From contig PHEU01000002.1 of assembly GCA_002841295.1 (NCBI GenBank), positions 62,001 through 126,000 of the forward strand: a DNA stretch of 64,000 bases, in the 5' to 3' direction. The position numbers and the translations under genes were made by a program. Of the stretch, positions 1,709 to 26,734 are shown piece after piece. Below the pieces are notes generated by a model. That model worked only from the letters and a program-made list of their open reading frames with translations, was not told where the DNA came from and made no database searches. The stretch is from Actinobacteria bacterium HGW-Actinobacteria-6. GTDB lineage: Bacteria; Actinomycetota; Coriobacteriia; Anaerosomatales; Anaerosomataceae. Position 1 is the first letter of the stretch. Each line of letters begins with the position of its first letter.

Positions 1709-4700
1709 TTAAGCCTTCTCGATGTTGACGAGGTACGCCTTGAACTCAGGGATCGATGTGTTTGCATCCCCGACGTTAGGCGTGAGGTCGTTGGCGATAG
1801 CACCGGTTGCCTGGCCGGAGGCGTAGCCCCAGTGCCAGGGCATGCCCACCTGATGAACGGTCTTGCCGTCGATCGTGAAAGGCTTGAAGCGCGGCGTGAC
1901 CATGGCAAGCATCTCGACTGAGGCGCGGTTGTTGTACACCTTGACCATATCGCCGTTCGCTACGCCCTTCTCCTCGGCAAGCTCCACCGACATCTCGACG
2001 AACATCTTCGGCATTGCCTCGGCAAGCCACGGGATGTTCCGAGTCATGCCACCGGTCTGCCAGTGCTCGGTCATGCGATAGGTGGTGCAGACGATCGGGA
2101 AGTCCTTCGGGTCACCGGGCTTCACTGACTCGGCCTTGCCAAAGGTGAGGTTCGGAGTCGACTGTCCACCGTTGATACGGTTGATCGCCGGGCTCTCAAA
2201 GGGCTCGTAGTGCTCCGGGAAGGGACCGTCCTTCATGCCAGCCGCGAAGAGCCGTGCGCCGCCCTCGGCGTTCATGATGAATGCCTTGTTGTTCGGCGGG
2301 GTCGGCGTGATGGTTCCATCCGCAGCGACCACCTGGAAGCCGAAGTCCGGCACGTCGCTGTGATTCCACTTGGTGCCGTCCCACTCGACGAGCATCCGGT
2401 CTGCGTTCCACGGCTTGCCAGCGACGTCGGCCGATGCGCGGTTGTACACGACACGGCGGTTCACAGGCCAGGAGAACGCCCACTCCGGGAAGAGCCCAAG
2501 TCCGCTCGGATCGTCCTTGCCACGCGAGCCGGTCGGCTGCTTGGTCGGGTCCGAAGGAGCATCGTTGTTGTTGTAGTAGCCGGAGTAGATCCACACGCCG
2601 CATGCCGTCGAACCGTCGGCGGCCAGCTTCGTGAAGTTCTTGACCAGGACACCGTCTGCGACGGTGTAGCCGTTCATGCCCTGAGCGACCTTTGTGATGT
2701 CTGGCTTGCCGTCGGTCTCATAGGGCCAGTGCAGCTTCGTGAGCTGCTCCGGGTTAGCGCCACCTTCGGCCTCATAGAGCTCTTTCAGCTTATGGAAGAG
2801 CTCATCAAGGATCTCGAAGTCGTCTCTGGCTTCTCCGGGAGGATCGATGGCCTTGTAGCGCCACTGGATCCAGCGACCCGAGTTCGCAACCGTGCCCTGC
2901 TTCTCAAAGTGAGCCGCAGCAGGGAGCAAGAAGACCTCCGTCTGGATGTCTCCAGAGTTGATTCCTGGTGCCTTCCAGAAGCCCGCAGTCTCGGTCTCCC
3001 ACAGGTCGACCGCAACGAGCCAGTCGAGCTTGCCAAGCATTGAACGCTCAAACGATGCGTTCGGTCCACCGACGGCCGGGTTCTGACCCCAGCACATCAT
3101 GCCCTTGACGATGCCGTCATTGATCGACTCGAAAATGCCGATGTGCGAGTGGTTGATGGCGTTCAGCTTCGGAAGCATGTCGTACGCGTAGTCGTTTTCG
3201 GCAGTGGCGTACGGTCCGTAAATCTCCTTGAGCTGGCTCACGAAGAACTTCGGCTTGTTCGCCCAGTAGCCGGCAGCCACAGTCTCCGTCTCGATCCACG
3301 CCTTAAGACTCGGATGCTTCGACGCGACAGGGACGGCCATGTACCCGGGCATGATGTGGAACAGAACGCCCATATCGGTAGAACCCTGGACGTTCGCCTC
3401 TCCACGCAGTGCGTTGATGCCACCACCGGCAATGCCGATGTTGCCGAGAAGAAGCTGCACAACAGCCATGGCGCGCACGTTCTGCGAGCCGTAGGTGTGC
3501 TGCGTCTGGCCCATCGCGTACAAGATGGTGCCCGACTTAGCGGCAGCGCCCGTTGCGGCGAAGGCTTCGTACACCTCGAGGAGCTTGTCCTGAGGACAGC
3601 CGGTAACGCTGGTCACCAGTTCAGGTGTGTAGCGCGCGTAGTGCTTCTTCATCAACTGCCATACGCAGTTGGGATCCTGCATTGTCATATCTTTCTTTGC
3701 GACCTTGTTCACGAGCGGCGTGAACCCAGGCACTCCAGGCGCCTTTGCCCATGCGTAGGGTCCGGCAGCGGAGGTATCCCAAGGCTCTTCAGCTTCGACC
3801 TGGTACTTCCAGGTATCGCCGGCACCATAGGAATTGGTCGCCTCGTCCCAACCAGAGAACAGACCATCGGCCTCTGTGAAGGCGAAGTCGGGATTCACCA
3901 GGAACGTAGCGTTCGTGTAGTTGGTGACGTACTCCTTCTGCCACAGGTCGTTATCGATGATGTACTTCATCAGACCGCCATAGAAGGCCATGTCTGAACC
4001 TGATCGCAAAGGAGCGTAGATGTCCGCCAAAGCAGCGGAGCGAGTGAACCGAGGGTCGACGACGATGTACTTGCCGCCCTTGGCACGCGCTTCCTGTACC
4101 CAAGCCATGGTGACAGGGTGATTCTCGGCATTGTTGGAGCCGATGGCCATGATGACATCAGAGTTCTTGAAGTCGCAGAAGTGGTTCGTCATCGCTCCGC
4201 GACCAAATGAGGCGCCCAGTCCGGACACCGTGGAGCTGTGTCAAATACGAGCCTGATGCTCGATGTACGTCAGACCCAGCCCGCGAGCCAACTTCTGGGC
4301 GATGTAGCCCTCTTCGTTGTCGAGAGCTGCCGCACCAAAGTGTGCGATTGCCTCACAGCGGTTGACAGTGACTCCGTCGGCCTCGGTCTCGTAGTTCTCG
4401 TCGCGGGTCTTCTTGATGCGCGCCGAGATCTCTCCGATCGCTTGCTCCCAAGAGAGCTCTTCCCACTCCGACTGGCCTGCCCGGCGAACCTTAGGCATGG
4501 TGAGTCGGTTCGGGTTGATGATGCGCTCGCCGTTCTTGTCGTCGTAAACGGAGTTCACGCCAAACTGCGACGAACCCTTCGAACAGAGGCCACCCCGGTT
4601 GATGGGGTGATCCGGGTCGCCCTCGATATTGACGAGCTTCCCGTCGCGTACCGAGACGATCGTGCCACACCCGCCAGAGCAGTAGCAGCAAATGGTCGAC

Positions 4701-4840
4701 GTCTCTTTGACGTCAACGAGCTTCCACCCCTGAACAGGTCCTAGTGCCAGTGCGGTTGACTGTCCAGCGAACTCGTACATGACACTCGAGAAGAGTGCAG
4801 CACCCGTCAGCTGGAAGAAGCCACGCCGTGTGATACTCAT
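1709..4840 (-). CDS. fdnG: Formate dehydrogenase catalytic subunit, selenocysteine-containing, Tat-exported
   Basis: Molybdopterin enzyme oxidising formate to CO2 outside the cytoplasmic membrane. The N-terminus carries a Tat motif (TRRGFFQ) and hydrophobic core. A [4Fe-4S] site follows at C51/C52/C54/C58 (TICCYCSGGCG) with GGLCSKG further on. An in-frame TGA at 4243-4241 (codon 200) sits in NQAR-type context (EHQARI-Sec-HSSTV, then SFGRGAMTNH), exactly where E. coli FdnG has its selenocysteine (Sec196). Reading through it joins a 199-residue front part to an 839-residue back part in the same frame, giving about 1043 residues, the family length. The downstream hairpin is annotated separately. 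First gene of fdnGHI. An automatic caller would wrongly split it in two. The cofactor would be bis-MGD with Mo or W. Confidence 0.95.
4211..4229 (-). promoter_or_regulatory. SECIS element, apical stem-loop, in fdnG
   Basis: Eleven bases after the TGA codon the mRNA can form a seven-base-pair stem (GGUGUCC with GGGCGCC, two G-U pairs) closed by a five-base loop GGACU. Bacterial SECIS elements recognised by SelB have this geometry: the E. coli fdhF loop is GGUCU at nearly the same distance from the UGA. Seen directly: the pairing and spacing. Inferred: SelB recognition, since selB and selC are outside the window. Confidence 0.8.
4241..4243 (-). other. Selenocysteine codon (UGA) of fdnG
   Basis: The TGA interrupts an otherwise continuous formate dehydrogenase frame at the position of the catalytic selenocysteine of FdnG/FdhF. 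Both sides are conserved family sequence in one frame and a SECIS-type hairpin follows, so recoding is far more likely than a nonsense mutation. Confidence 0.94.
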
Positions 4841-15951: not shown

Positions 15952-18900
15952 CTAGGCCTTCCTCGCCCACTTGAGCCCGGCGAACTGCCCGGAGACCTTC
16001 TCCATGAAGTCCGGCAGGCCACCTGTGTACTTAAGCTCCCGGAGTCGCGCGTCTGCTTCGGCAGGAGTGAGTTTGCCGGTCTGCACGTCCTTGATCGCCT
16101 GCATACCGGCGTCGATCTTGGGCGGCAGCTGCTTGATCCCGTAGTGCTGAACTGCGTAGCCCTCGCGCACGCACTCCAAGGAGTGCACCGCCTTGTCGGC
16201 CTGTGCGTACGCGTCGAGATGGTTGCCCTCGTGATAGGCCTCGGCCACTTTTGACTCGTACGTCTTGCCGTAGCCCTCGGGATCGATCAGCGTCGATTCT
16301 CCCCGCTTGACGAGGTCGGCGTTCGGCGTGAGCTGGGTCCTCTCCCACTTGCCGGTCCGCTCGTTGTAGATGGTCCCCTGATCCGCCATGTCCACGCTCG
16401 CCTCGGCATGGTACTGATCGGTGGCGAGCTGCTGGTGGTCTTTCGCCCACTTGGCAGCGCCCTTGGGATCGGTGGGCCCGCCGGTCTCCTTAGCGAAGAT
16501 CCGCTGAGACTCGCCCGCCCATGACTCCTTCTTGAACTCGATGAATCGCTGCGTCCCGTCGGGGCCTGTGGTCACGTAGCCGGCACGGTAGTCGCGATCG
16601 ACGCCGTCTATGGTGCCGACGCTCCGGATCTCGACCCGGCGGCCCTCGGCATCGGGCACGTTCTTCTCGATCCACTCCTTCAGATCGGCGTCGTGTCCCT
16701 TGTAGACCTCTGCACGCGTCTCGTTGATCTTTGCCCACGCCTCAGGGTTGGTGTTCTTCAGTTCACGCATAGCATCGGGGTCGACCATGATCCGCTCGAC
16801 GGTTGCCCGGTCAAGCGGCTTGCCGTCGGCTGTCTTGGCTGCGATGTCATCGGCGATCGCCGCAGCGCGCTCTTGTGGCGAGCCCTTGGGCTTCTTGGGC
16901 GCCGACTTCTCCGGCGCATCCGGTTGCTTCTCGGGCGCGTCGGGCTTCTTCTCGGGCGCGTCGGGCTTCTTCTCCGGTGCGTCTGGCTGCTTGCGCGCAT
17001 CAGGGCTATCGGGCGTGCCGGACTTCTTCGCGGTCCCAGCATCGATCCCCGGTCCGCGTACGGACTTCATGTTCGCGATGTGCCGAAGGAACATGATGAG
17101 TCCCTCATCACGCAGCTGCTTCCCCACGTTCTTCATCGCATTGGTGACCGACAGGTTCGGATCGTTGTAGAGCTCTTTGGCGAAGTAGTACGCGATGAAC
17201 AGCGCCCAGGCAATCGCTTTCTTATCGGCGGTAAGCTTGGAGAGCACGTCCGGGTCAGTGAGGAGCCCCTCGGCCGTTCCGGTGAGCATGGACGTCTGTG
17301 CGGCAAGCCAGTCGTCAAGCGACCCACCGGCGAGCCAGACCTCCATCGCCGAGACGAGCATCGGCTTGAGCATGCCGATCGCCACCGCGCCGACAACCCC
17401 CAGGTAAGTGCCGCTTGCGACGCCGAAGGCGATGTCGCCGCACCACGAGACCCAGTCGAGCGTGTCCTCGATCTGCTGGATCCACCAGCCCATGTCCATG
17501 TACTCGTGCGCCTCTTTGGTGAGCTGGTCATGCGCGAAGCTCCATAGCTGCATGCGCATCTTGTACAAGCCCTCGGCGCCCATCGTGAGCGAGCGCTCGT
17601 TCACGAGCGCGTGCAGGCGCTCCTGGTACTCGTGGGGCACATAGAACTGGATGACGTCGCGGCACCCATCGAGTTCGGTCTGCCATGCCGCCGAGAATGG
17701 ATCGGTGTTCACGCCTAGCAGACGCAGCGGCACGAGCGTGCTGTAGGGGCCCTCGTCGTGTCCGGGCACGCTGGCGCGCAGGGTGGCAGGGAGCGCCTCG
17801 CCGCCGGTGGGCAGCTGCCGCTCAATGCCGAGGCGGAACGTGGCGCTCGGCACGTTGCCCGGACGCACACCGGCAGGCGCAACCAGCAGGCCGCCCGACT
17901 TCAGGCCGGCGCGGCCCGGAGTCCCCTCTTCGCCAGCGATCTCAAGCTGCACCCGCTGCGCGAGTGCGATGTCGGGCGCGATCGTGTTGGTGGCAGGGTC
18001 GCGGACGAAGACCCGCACGTCGATATCAACAGGCGTAGCGCTGCCGTCAGCCTTCAGGTGGAACGCACCGGTGGAGGGGTCGACGTTCGTGCGGTCGATG
18101 AAGATGCCTTCCTGGGTGACGATGACCTCGATCTCGCGCTTGAGCGGCTCGAAACCCTCGGCGCGCGCAAGCACCACGAGCGTTGCGGCCGTCTGCGGAC
18201 GTGCGGGGTCGAGCCTGTCGCCCGCACTCTCGGTGAGCGTGAGCGTGGCCGTCGACGCGCCCGTCGAGGTGATGTCGGGCGTCGCTATCAGCCGGGCTCC
18301 CTCGCGCCACTCGGTATCGAACTGCCACTGCACGCCGCTGCCACTCTCGACCCACACGCGTATCTCGGCAGACTCGCCCGAATCGGCGGCGAGCGATATC
18401 TGGTCGGGCTGCGCTTCGAGCTGAGGCAGGCGTGCCAGCGTGATGGTCACTATCGCTGTCAGCGGTCGCTCTCCCACCATCGCGGTCACCCGCACCGCGG
18501 CGCTCTCGGGCGGCTGCACAAAGCTCGTCGAATCCGGCCGAGACGCCCTCACCGTGATCGCGCGGCCATCCTCGTAGTCGGCGGGGGCCGATATCTCGAG
18601 CCACTCGGAGTCCTCGGCGAAGGCGATAGATGCGCGGACAGTAGCCGGGTCGATTGCGGGATCCATCGCATCGGCCCCGATGAGCTCTACTGCTGCAACG
18701 AGCGTGACTGAGTCCTCGCCCTCACAGCGGAGCTCGAGCTTGCCCGCAGGCTCGAAGCGCGTGGCTATGCGGCTCGCTCCTGCGGCTGCAACGCGCACCA
18801 TGGCCTGCGTGGTCCCGGAAGGTGCTGTCGCCTGGATCGCGATTCCCGCGCCCATTGCGACAGGTCCGGTCTGCCACACGGCCGCAGACAGCGTGCCGTA

Positions 18901-19863
18901 CGCGCTTGAGGGCTCCACGCTCACGCCGCTTGAGGGCGTGACGGCTATACCCGCCTCGGGAGCCGGCTGATATTGCCCGCTCGGTAACACCCGGAATGCC
19001 TGGATGGTAAGGGTGGCCGAGTGAGCCTCGCTCACCGTGAGACGTGCCGCCGAAAGCTGGAGCACGTAACCCACGGGCTTGTCCGGCTCTGGCTCAGGCT
19101 CCCCTTTCTTCGCACGCGCACTCGCGGCCGCTCCGGCCATCGCAATCGCTGCAGCGGCCACAGCGGCGATGCCGCCCGTGACAGTGCGCCACGGCGAGGA
19201 GCCTTCACCGTCGCCGGGTACAGCGGGTCCCGCGCTCCCGCCGGAAGCGTTGAATCGAAGCGACGTTAGGACCGACTCGACGTCGTTGGTCATCGCATTG
19301 AAGTTGGCCTCGGTCTCGTCGCCCGCTATATACCCTCCTCCAGACACGTAGATGCCGCCGTCATCGGTGGGGATCCAGTACTGGTACTCGGTCTGGAACC
19401 AGTTGTAGTCGTCGTATCCCTTGTACACGCCGACGTTTGACCAGGCTTCAAGCCCGCCGAGGGTCGTCTCCTTGGCTCCTGCCCACACGTAGTCGATCTG
19501 CTCGGCCACCTGATCTGCGCTCGTGTAGAGCGTCACTGACCCGCCCGAACGCGCGGCGAAGTCCTCAAAGGATGTGAAGTAGTTCTCCTCGGGCAGGCCT
19601 GTGTAGGGGTTCTCGGGAGTCAAGGCCTTAACAAGGACGTCCGCCGTCCCGCCCCAGCCATCGATGTCGCCGTACTCTCCGTTGGCCGAGAAGTAGCCCT
19701 CGTCATTGCTGCCCAGCATCCAGAAGCCCGGCAGGTCGTAGTCAGTCACCAGATTGCCAGCGGCCAAAGCCAGGGCCGGCAGCACGAAGATCACCGCGAG
19801 GGAGATGAGCGTGCAGATAGCGATTGCGCGGCGGAGCCGGGTACGTCGATGTGCGCGTATCAT
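15952..19863 (-). CDS. Giant secreted/anchored multidomain protein, possible polymorphic-toxin-like effector
   Basis: 1303 residues, function unknown. Order: a short Arg-rich start and signal-anchor helix (about 13-35), an aromatic-rich extracellular-type domain (37-205), a second Ala-rich transmembrane helix (about 228-248), a charged EPEPEP linker, several Ig-like beta domains (about 265-700), a helical region with Trp/Gly-rich membrane-like segments (about 740-900), a Pro/Lys linker with four copies of PEKKPDA-like heptads (about 957-985), and a globular C-terminal part (about 1000-1303). That part contains DRDYRAGYVTTGPDG, FIEFKKESW and HQQLATDQYHAEAS. The layout of beta repeats, linker and variable C-terminal domain recalls polymorphic toxins, but I recognise no catalytic family and see no immunity gene downstream. 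The start at 19863 overlaps the stop of the zinc-ribbon gene (ATGA). Confidence 0.75.
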   Translation of the reverse strand: MIRAHRRTRLRRAIAICTLISLAVIFVLPALALAAGNLVTDYDLPGFWMLGSNDEGYFSANGEYGDIDGWGGTADVLVKALTPENPYTGLPEENYFTSFEDFAARSGGSVTLYTSADQVAEQIDYVWAGAKETTLGGLEAWSNVGVYKGYDDYNWFQTEYQYWIPTDDGGIYVSGGGYIAGDETEANFNAMTNDVESVLTSLRFNASGGSAGPAVPGDGEGSSPWRTVTGGIAAVAAAAIAMAGAAASARAKKGEPEPEPDKPVGYVLQLSAARLTVSEAHSATLTIQAFRVLPSGQYQPAPEAGIAVTPSSGVSVEPSSAYGTLSAAVWQTGPVAMGAGIAIQATAPSGTTQAMVRVAAAGASRIATRFEPAGKLELRCEGEDSVTLVAAVELIGADAMDPAIDPATVRASIAFAEDSEWLEISAPADYEDGRAITVRASRPDSTSFVQPPESAAVRVTAMVGERPLTAIVTITLARLPQLEAQPDQISLAADSGESAEIRVWVESGSGVQWQFDTEWREGARLIATPDITSTGASTATLTLTESAGDRLDPARPQTAATLVVLARAEGFEPLKREIEVIVTQEGIFIDRTNVDPSTGAFHLKADGSATPVDIDVRVFVRDPATNTIAPDIALAQRVQLEIAGEEGTPGRAGLKSGGLLVAPAGVRPGNVPSATFRLGIERQLPTGGEALPATLRASVPGHDEGPYSTLVPLRLLGVNTDPFSAAWQTELDGCRDVIQFYVPHEYQERLHALVNERSLTMGAEGLYKMRMQLWSFAHDQLTKEAHEYMDMGWWIQQIEDTLDWVSWCGDIAFGVASGTYLGVVGAVAIGMLKPMLVSAMEVWLAGGSLDDWLAAQTSMLTGTAEGLLTDPDVLSKLTADKKAIAWALFIAYYFAKELYNDPNLSVTNAMKNVGKQLRDEGLIMFLRHIANMKSVRGPGIDAGTAKKSGTPDSPDARKQPDAPEKKPDAPEKKPDAPEKQPDAPEKSAPKKPKGSPQERAAAIADDIAAKTADGKPLDRATVERIMVDPDAMRELKNTNPEAWAKINETRAEVYKGHDADLKEWIEKNVPDAEGRRVEIRSVGTIDGVDRDYRAGYVTTGPDGTQRFIEFKKESWAGESQRIFAKETGGPTDPKGAAKWAKDHQQLATDQYHAEASVDMADQGTIYNERTGKWERTQLTPNADLVKRGESTLIDPEGYGKTYESKVAEAYHEGNHLDAYAQADKAVHSLECVREGYAVQHYGIKQLPPKIDAGMQAIKDVQTGKLTPAEADARLRELKYTGGLPDFMEKVSGQFAGLKWARKA
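16908..16991 (-). repeat. Tandem 21-bp coding repeat (four units)
   Basis: Four successive 21-base units encode PDAPEKK/PDAPEKQ heptads, a flexible Pro/Lys linker in the giant protein. The copies differ by only a few bases, so copy number may vary by slippage. Confidence 0.85.
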
Positions 19864-20501
19864 GACCGCCTCCTCAGTGCCACCGAGGCTGTCTTGAGCG
19901 CCATCACGAGCGCCGAGGCGGTCGCTACCGCCATGGGCACCAGCGTGAGCAGCGGCGTTCCGTTTGCCAGCCCCGCGAGAAGCGTCCCGCCGAGCGAAAC
20001 GATCTGAACGACAGCCGTCACCAGCGAGACCACGCCCGTGAGGCCGCGTAGCGCGCCGCCTTTGGAGCCGGTGATCAAAGAGAGCAGCGACGTCAGGCCT
20101 CCGCCAAGTGCACGAGGGATAGCCGCCGCTAGTGCTGCCGGTCCCCCGGAGACACCCGCCACGAACAGGTCGAGCGCCACCGTGGCGGCCATCGAAAGAC
20201 CGGGTCGCCTCAAAGAGCGCTGCACGACGGTCCGAGCGGCCGGCATGGCTGCAGCCGACAGCATCGCGCGAAGATCCGGTGTCTGGCCGGCTACGATCGT
20301 CTGCCAGGGAAGACCGGCGACCATGGATGCCGCCCCGGATGCAGTCGCAACGACACCCGCAACGGAAGTGGGCCGCGGCGCGGGTATTGGCCGACCCGCT
20401 GCCGGGAGAGTTCGAGGACTCCCACATCCGGTACAGAACGGGTCAGAACCGACGAATCGTCTCCCACATCGAGTGCAGAATGGCGCGGACCCGTCACTCA
20501 T
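19860..20501 (-). CDS. Zinc-ribbon membrane-associated protein
   Basis: 213 residues. The N-terminus holds a double zinc ribbon (FCTRCGRRF and FCTGCGSPR, residues 8-30), followed by a Pro-rich linker and a mainly Ala/Gly/Val-rich hydrophobic body with several candidate membrane segments (about 60-80, 110-135, 155-205). It is translationally coupled to the giant protein gene (stop and start overlap in ATGA), so the two products very likely act together, perhaps as a membrane partner or assembly factor. No enzymatic motif is seen. Function unknown. Confidence 0.8.
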   Translation of the reverse strand: MSDGSAPFCTRCGRRFVGSDPFCTGCGSPRTLPAAGRPIPAPRPTSVAGVVATASGAASMVAGLPWQTIVAGQTPDLRAMLSAAAMPAARTVVQRSLRRPGLSMAATVALDLFVAGVSGGPAALAAAIPRALGGGLTSLLSLITGSKGGALRGLTGVVSLVTAVVQIVSLGGTLLAGLANGTPLLTLVPMAVATASALVMALKTASVALRRRS

Positions 20502-24614: not shown

Positions 24615-26663
24615 CTAGACCTTCGCCTCTGGATGCCGCACGGGCAGCTGGAATGTGAACGTTGAACCCTTGCCGAGAACAGACTCGGCACTCAGCGAGC
24701 CACCCAGCAGGGCTGCGAGCCTGCGCGAGATCGACAGGCCGAGTCCCGCACCGTCCTCGACCCTGCGAACCAGACCTCGCACGGTGGCGAACCTGTCGAA
24801 GAGCCCGTCCATGTCTTCCGGAGCTATGCCGCATCCGGTATCGGAGACCGATACGGTTGCCGAAATGCCGTCCCAGGTACCTGCGACAAGAATCTTCACA
24901 GAACCCTCGGCGGTGTATTTGATCGCATTTGAGAGCAGGTTCAAAATGACCTGCCCGACCTTCTCACGATCGGTCCACATGGGGATAACAGGCTCTGCCG
25001 CATCGACCGAAATGCCAAGACCTTTCGAGGCCACCATCGGTTGAACCGTATCGACCATGGTGGTCACGAGTGCGACCAAATCGAATTCCTCGGGAATGAT
25101 ATCGAACTTTCCGGATTCGATACGACTCAGGTCAAGGACGTCGTTGACGAGACCGAGCAATCGCTCCCCCGAGTCCCGGATGATCGCAATCTGCTTGTGC
25201 TGCTCGCCATTGAGGGGACCAGCGAGCCCCTGTGCAAGGATGCCAGAGAACCCAATGATGGAGTTCAGTGGCGTCCTGAGCTCATGGCTCATGCTCGCGA
25301 GGAAGTCGTCCTTCACGCGATTAGCCTCCCCGAGCTGCACAAGCAGCGCCTCAAGTTCGGCAGTGCGCTCGCTAACGAGAGACTCAAGGGCCTTCTCGGA
25401 CTCTTTGTGCATAGTGATGTCTCGGAAGACGGTCGCAAAACGATCGCCGACTCCCGCACGAAAAGTCGTAACCCGGAGCCATTTCTGGATTGGCGAAGAC
25501 CAGACCTCATAGGTGGAGCTGCCCCCGCTGCTGACCGCAGCGGAACACGCTGTTCGTCAATTCATCCCGAGCGGATTGCCCGGAAGCCACACTTCGTCAA
25601 TAAGCTTGCCGAGAACATCGTCGTGCGAGAGCCCGAAGAGCACCTCGAACGCCGGGTTCACCTCGGCAAACCGGTAATCAGTGATAACACCGGCTTCGTC
25701 TCGCACTGCAACATGCTGGGCGACCGCATCGATCATGTTCTCGAAGAGTGCGCGGTACTCGGCGCGACCCTGCAGCACGTCGTCCTCAACCCGCTTGCGC
25801 TCTGTCACATCTGAGAGCGCTATGGTAATCCCCCGGAACGTGCCAGAAACATCCTGCATGCGTTTGAGCCGGACGATATAGAACCGGGGACCGGATGTCG
25901 TTTGCAGAGAGCGCTCGAGCTCGCGCGCTTCAGCCGTGTCGTCCAAGAACGCGGCAATCTCCGCGTCAAGCGGGGCGAAAGGAACTCCAACATCCACGTG
26001 CGAGTAATACGCCGAGCCGCTAACGGACCCCATACCGAAGGCCTCGGCAGCAGCCTCATTGATGTTTTCGATCAATCCATTCTCGTCGAGAAGGATCACG
26101 GGGACGTTCAGACTCTCGAAGATCGTCAGATAGCGGACCTTCTCGTCAGTCGCGCTGCGGTTTCGCTCCTGGAGTTCTACCACAGCGGCGCTTGCGCCCA
26201 ACCCCGCCCATTCTTTCGAGAAGCCGATCTTGAGGCGGTCGAAGTACTTCTGTACGACAAGCGAGTATGACTTCGCCTCAGTGGCGTCTTCGACCGTTTC
26301 GCACAAGTCGAGAAACGCGCGCTCGTAGTAGTTCATGAGAGCCAGGAACATCTCAAATGGAACACCCCGGGTGCGGTGCTGCCGCGCCTCGTGGACGCCG
26401 AATTCCACGGCCGGGTCTTCGGAGATATCCTCCTCGCAGCGGATGTCGAGGTCGCAGTCGCTCTTGCGAGCAGCTGCAAGGAGCGAGTCAACCAAGCCGT
26501 GCACTGAGAGTCGCCATGGCTCTTCAAGTGCCGAGGTGTACCGCGTGTAGCCGAATTCCTGCGCATAGCCCAGGATGCGTTGCATAAGCCACTGTTCACC
26601 TGCTCTGAACAGCTGTTCAAGCTTCTCAACCTGCGGTCGGCTTGATGGTGTGAGCTGCGACAA
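24615..26663 (-). CDS. PAS-domain sensor histidine kinase interrupted by an in-frame TGA
   Basis: About 682 codons. An N-terminal helical sensor-like domain (about 1-150) is followed by PAS (about 180-300), a second PAS (about 310-430), HisKA with MSHELRTPLNSI (phospho-acceptor His) and a HATPase with NLLSNAIKY, DTGCGI and GAGLGLSIS. Codon 369 (25559-25557) is TGA, within the second PAS: LPGNPLGMN-stop-RTACS. Frame and homology continue unbroken on both sides (STYEVWSSP...ATVFRDIT), so there is no frameshift. Aligned by eye to related PAS domains the position is usually Trp. Either this is a nonsense-inactivated gene, or the TGA is decoded; a SECIS-like hairpin follows. The TTG start at 26663 has GGAGG six bases ahead; the frame is open to a GTG at 26705. 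Confidence 0.7.
25525..25559 (-). other. In-frame TGA with SECIS-like hairpin
   Basis: After the TGA (25559-25557) come 13 bases, then CCGCTGC (25543-25537), loop GGTCA, and GCAGCGG (25531-25525): a perfect seven-pair stem with a five-base loop. In fdnG of this same window the gap is 11 bases, the stem is seven pairs and the loop is GGACT; the E. coli loop is GGTCT. The resemblance is direct; that it works in recoding is a hypothesis. Confidence 0.4.
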
Positions 26664-26734
26664 GTGACCCTCCAAGTGGGCCAAAGGTGCCTGGTCAGGC
26701 GACACAACGATAGCACACGGCAGTTGGTCGGAAG

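Follow-up and report, generated by a model that had tools for sequence, protein, structure and literature searches.

The window, by which we mean the whole analysed stretch of 64,000 nucleotides, encodes on its minus strand a sensor histidine kinase whose reading frame, from 26705 to 24615, contains only one internal stop, a TGA (Table 1). This TGA is codon 369 when counted from TTG 26663, or codon 383 from GTG 26705. The encoded protein matches HisKA (1.3e-21), HATPase_c (8.9e-26) and PAS (4.8e-13), and has the phospho-acceptor His motif SHELRTPL, which together identify it as a PAS sensor histidine kinase. The alignment to family orthologues passes through the TGA column without a gap, with PAS homology on both sides, and the predicted fold of the segment is a complete PAS domain, in which the TGA codon lies in a helix at segment residues 78-93. 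An earlier note on this DNA had described a kinase that reads in one frame across TGA codon 369 with unbroken PAS homology; both the frame and the alignment confirm this description. The same strand also contains an open reading frame of 1491 residues with PDAPEKK repeats and no Pfam match (15952-20427).

Table 1. Positions of the kinase gene, its recoding-related elements and the formate dehydrogenase gene in the window
Feature	Position	Strand	Remarks
Sensor histidine kinase gene	24615..26705	minus	N-terminal region, PAS1, PAS2, coiled coil, HisKA, HATPase_c; from domain matches and gene order
Kinase start candidates	TTG 26663 (likely) or GTG 26705; stop at 24615	minus	GGAGGG just upstream of TTG 26663
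In-frame TGA, proposed selenocysteine (Sec) codon	25559-25557	minus	PAS2 F-alpha helix; same column in G001 and G004
SECIS-like hairpin	25523..25545	minus	9 pairs, loop GGTCA, apical loop 20 nt past the TGA
Upstream frame	25560..26705	minus	Truncated PAS-PAS product of at most 382 residues if UGA stops translation
TGA to first in-frame start, ATG 25412	25413..25556	minus	Protein-type selection; reinitiation cannot reach these codons in G000
fdnG, formate dehydrogenase-N alpha subunit	1709..4840	minus	Sec TGA at 4243-4241, followed by a SECIS hairpin; serves as internal positive control that the host uses Sec

Conservation of the TGA codon and of the hairpin behind it

We compared the genome of the window (G000) with four other genomes of the same genus (G001, G002, G003 and G004) and, for the kinase, with three more distant relatives (G009, G010 and G018). 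All assemblies in the comparison of kinase orthologues are drafts, and that of G002 is an 86% complete one. Orthologues of the kinase are present in three of the four other genomes of the genus (G001, G002 and G004), where they share with the window the gene order tadA - small membrane protein - kinase; no orthologue was found in G003. In the G004 gene (G004:C26 around 9655), a run of G nucleotides some 140 codons before the TGA contains a frameshift, which is either a sequencing error or real. A wider hunt over genome contigs gave no true orthologue of the kinase, and no further copy with the TGA was found among 69 genomes of the order and 398 of the class. Two other kinases with a TGA were rejected as examples: in G023 the TGA is the terminal stop, and in G035 (contig C112), a genome from another family of the order, the in-frame TGA lies inside the HATPase domain of a different kinase.

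The TGA occupies the same column in G000, G001 and G004 (GMN*RTAC, CLN*NESY and SLN*LDSY, respectively); the G001 and G004 proteins show 61-71% identity, or 61-76% when regions are taken separately. The G002 gene has TTG (Leu) at this column, and the kinases of G009, G010 and G018 have TGG (Trp). Between the TGA copies, dS in the flanks is about 1-1.8, so that synonymous sites are near saturation (in the short 51-codon segment after the TGA, dS is saturated in some pairs), and dN takes values of about 0.16-0.29 both before and after the TGA. Over the next 51 codons, G000 and G004 differ by 10, 12 and 30 changes at codon positions 1, 2 and 3. Furthermore, the first in-frame ATG, GTG or TTG after the TGA in G000 is ATG 25412, about 48 codons on, and this start is not kept in G001, which has Thr instead of Met. 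The conserved UGA, the protein-type selection beyond it and the lack of a start soon after it thus argue that translation passes through the UGA. Both the continuation of the coding frame beyond the UGA and the UGA at the same column in orthologues are properties of bacterial selenoproteins. In a tree of the kinases, the TTG copy of G002 groups with the TGA copy of G004 (91/95), and the deeper split is not resolved; given this grouping, the simplest history is therefore one gain of the TGA in the genus followed by one loss.

Thirteen bases after the TGA lies a perfect hairpin core, CCGCTGC-GGTCA-GCAGCGG (25543-25525), whose seven Watson-Crick pairs and loop are as the earlier note had read them, and which can be extended to nine pairs by two G-U pairs (25545-25523). 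Among the 640 codon positions of the G000 kinase gene, just one is followed by a structure this stable. We also applied published rules for bacterial SECIS (bSECIS) elements, namely a loop of 3-9 nt, a stem of 4-16 bp, a G in the first two loop positions, a spacing of 16-37 nt and a minimum free energy (MFE) of at most -7.5 kcal/mol (PMC13188914). All three TGA copies pass these rules, and none of the four sense-codon copies does. The hairpins of G000, G001 and G004 have MFEs of -14.8, -9.2 and -9.1 kcal/mol and spacings of 20, 17 and 17, respectively. The rules are permissive, in that 5%, 11% and 9% of the codon positions in the three TGA genes pass them; three passes by chance would have a probability of about 5 in 10,000 if independent, and their independence is only partial. 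Compared with recodings that leave the peptide unchanged, the hairpin scores of the TGA copies have P = 0.022, 0.025 and 0.011, and that of G002 has 0.23. In raw folding energy, the G000 hairpin alone stands out, and those of G001 and G004 are modest (P about 0.22).

The 5′ arm of the hairpin has nearly the same start in all three TGA copies, and in G000 the stem is longer than in G001 and G004 and its 3′ arm is displaced downstream by three bases. The structure thus appears to have been kept without strict conservation of its sequence. The earlier note had suggested that further strains be compared for both the TGA and the stem, and both are kept in three species, the stem in this looser sense. 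Its alternative of a fresh nonsense mutation does not hold, with the TGA fixed at one column in three diverged species. The pattern that it had named as arguing against recoding, with sister strains carrying TGG and a hairpin that is not conserved, is seen only in more distant genera and not within the genus.

Selenocysteine decoding in the host genus

The genes selA, selB, selC and selD were found in G000, G001, G003 and G004, and thus in all genomes with the TGA. None of the four was found in G002, but that assembly also has no match to a 20-kb probe of the locus and no prfB. The absence of sel genes from G002 is thus probably a gap in the draft and was not counted as evidence, and for the same reason we rejected the loss of Sec decoding in G002 as the cause of its change from TGA to Leu. 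The only tRNA-Sec gene found in G000 (G000:C63:47926-48015) is three bases short in its T loop, which reads TTC---T, as opposed to TTCGATT in all relatives, and ARAGORN makes no call for it. Either the assembly is wrong at this point or decay of Sec decoding has begun in that one species; the tRNA-Sec genes of G001 and G004, which are intact, are not affected.

Other genes of the genus use Sec. In the window itself, fdnG carries the TGA and the SECIS hairpin with loop GGACT to which the earlier note had pointed. Sec TGAs are also found in SelD of four genomes of the genus, and the hairpins behind the TGAs of fdnG and SelD resemble that of the kinase in geometry. The fdnG operon is directly preceded, on its own strand, by a molybdenum/tungsten cofactor riboswitch (RF01055, 5079-5202, minus strand, 57.5 bits). 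A second FdnG-related molybdopterin oxidoreductase is encoded at G000:C18:35068-37185 with a TGA in the matched stretch, and is possibly another Sec enzyme.

Elsewhere, TGA is an ordinary stop codon, including in ATGA overlaps, and release factor RF2 is encoded in all genomes with the TGA. Since RF2 is present and TGA terminates ordinary genes, genome-wide reassignment of TGA was rejected, and the recoding would therefore be local. The commonest stop of long open reading frames in the window and in loci L060-L063 is TAG, despite a G+C content of 63-68% and the presence of RF2; Sec decoding could explain such a mild tendency to avoid TGA as a stop.

Among 44 related PAS segments, the residue at the TGA column is Trp in 28, Leu in 6 and Sec in 3, with the rest mixed, which agrees with the previous remark that Trp is usual here. 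None of the 44 has Cys, whose presence is the usual, though not strictly defining, criterion for discovering selenoproteins. The comparison of homologues that had been proposed as a check thus gave a divided answer: the TGA recurs in orthologues, which supports recoding, yet other homologues have Trp or Leu and never Cys, which speaks against it and sets the kinase apart from the usual Sec/Cys pairs. No conserved partner Cys for the Sec was found, and a UxxC or CxxU partnership was rejected, as CxxU occurs in G001 only. Since homologues carry Trp and none carries Cys, the Sec seems to have taken the place of a Trp, possibly by a change from TGG to TGA, with the hairpin formed in the same lineage (the outgroups are without it).

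Decoding of the UGA and the place of the kinase among known proteins

The kinase resembles the bSECIS-dependent selenoproteins FdnG/FdhF and SelD in its in-frame UGA, a loop 16-37 nt downstream, a G at the start of this loop and a host that encodes selA, selB, selC and selD. It differs from them in that it is not a known redox enzyme, has no Cys homologue and has an ancestrally Trp column, and in that the residue belongs to a helix of a sensory PAS domain and not to a catalytic motif like UxxC or CxxU. With PAS/LOV sensor histidine kinases it shares the PAS-coiled coil-HisKA-HATPase arrangement, and the fold predicted for PAS2 matches LOV/PAS structures. The flavin-binding Cys of LOV domains lies in E-alpha, in the flavin-adduct motif GxNCRFLQ. 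In our kinase the UGA sits in the F-alpha helix, and the flavin-binding Cys is not conserved; the motif is absent from the kinase alignment, where the aligned positions read GKLIDE, GRAVSE and GKCVSE, so that the protein does not qualify as a LOV photoreceptor. The LOV Cys was thus rejected, on grounds of position, as the identity of the TGA residue.

The UGA is probably decoded as Sec within PAS2, which would give a full-length, Sec-containing PAS histidine kinase. The sequence evidence for such a selenoprotein kinase, which the earlier note had raised as a possibility, consists of the conserved TGA, the association of the hairpin with it, the sel genes and selection across the codon. The hairpin would bind SelB carrying Sec-tRNA(Sec) during translation, Sec would be inserted at codon 369 or 383, and the ribosome would continue to complete the PAS-PAS-HisKA-HATPase kinase. 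Pairings of SelB with SECIS elements can be specific to a lineage.

Readthrough without Sec, for example with Trp inserted by near-cognate tRNA-Trp, would instead yield little full-length kinase, and the hairpin would be incidental or an aid to readthrough. Most related PAS domains have Trp (TGG) here, which is probably also the ancestral residue, and TGA is one change away; moreover, Sec without Cys homologues is unusual. However, hairpins with SECIS geometry occur in all TGA copies and in none of the sense copies, the genus possesses a Sec system as well as known genes with the same hairpin geometry, RF2 is encoded, and G002 has replaced the TGA by Leu rather than Trp. We thus regard this explanation as unlikely.

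It is very unlikely that the UGA is a true stop that splits the gene into a PAS-PAS fragment and a separately started kinase. Although a HisKA-HATPase protein of 265 residues could begin at the internal ATG 25412, and an in-frame ATG occurs at the matching place in G004 and G002, the segment between the TGA and this ATG has no start codon in G000, evolves as protein and completes the PAS2 fold. In addition, the internal Met is replaced in G001, and four orthologues are continuous. A pseudogene or an assembly error, to which the frameshift in the G004 copy and the draft state of all assemblies might point, is strongly disfavoured and highly improbable: three genes that were assembled separately and are 61-71% identical share the codon at this column, there are no other stops, and dN/dS is low on both sides of the TGA.

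If Sec is inserted, its role is a matter of speculation. Lying in the PAS2 F-alpha helix, upstream of the coiled coil to HisKA, it may serve in redox or ligand sensing. Alternatively, the need for Sec-tRNA may gate synthesis of active kinase by selenium supply, in which case selenium shortage would leave a PAS-PAS fragment of 368-382 residues. We tentatively suggest that two-component signalling here uses encoded Sec, with a formerly Trp residue of a PAS domain sensing redox state or tying kinase synthesis to selenium.

The earlier note had known of no Sec-containing PAS kinase, a statement that needs qualifying in view of one prediction. In the part of that publication available to us, a histidine kinase of the metagenome-assembled genome Deltaproteobacteria-bbl-31 is given as a novel putative selenoprotein found by bSECISearch and needing verification (PMC8318568). 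It is likewise a predicted Sec histidine kinase, known from one such genome with no conservation shown, and is compared here by its description only. A 2026 catalogue comprises 119 prokaryotic selenoprotein families, mostly redox enzymes or thiol-type proteins; searched in full, its text uses ‘kinase’ for PSTK only and ‘sensor’ nowhere, and names no histidine kinase (PMC13188914). As far as could be checked, a UGA and hairpin conserved across species are thus new for histidine kinases. If a conserved Sec in a sensor kinase is true, Sec would enter signal transduction, being almost unknown in signalling kinases, and selenium or redox state may have a direct input to gene regulation. The kinase would also be a case in which Sec arose from a residue other than Cys, and which is therefore invisible to discovery pipelines based on Sec/Cys pairs.
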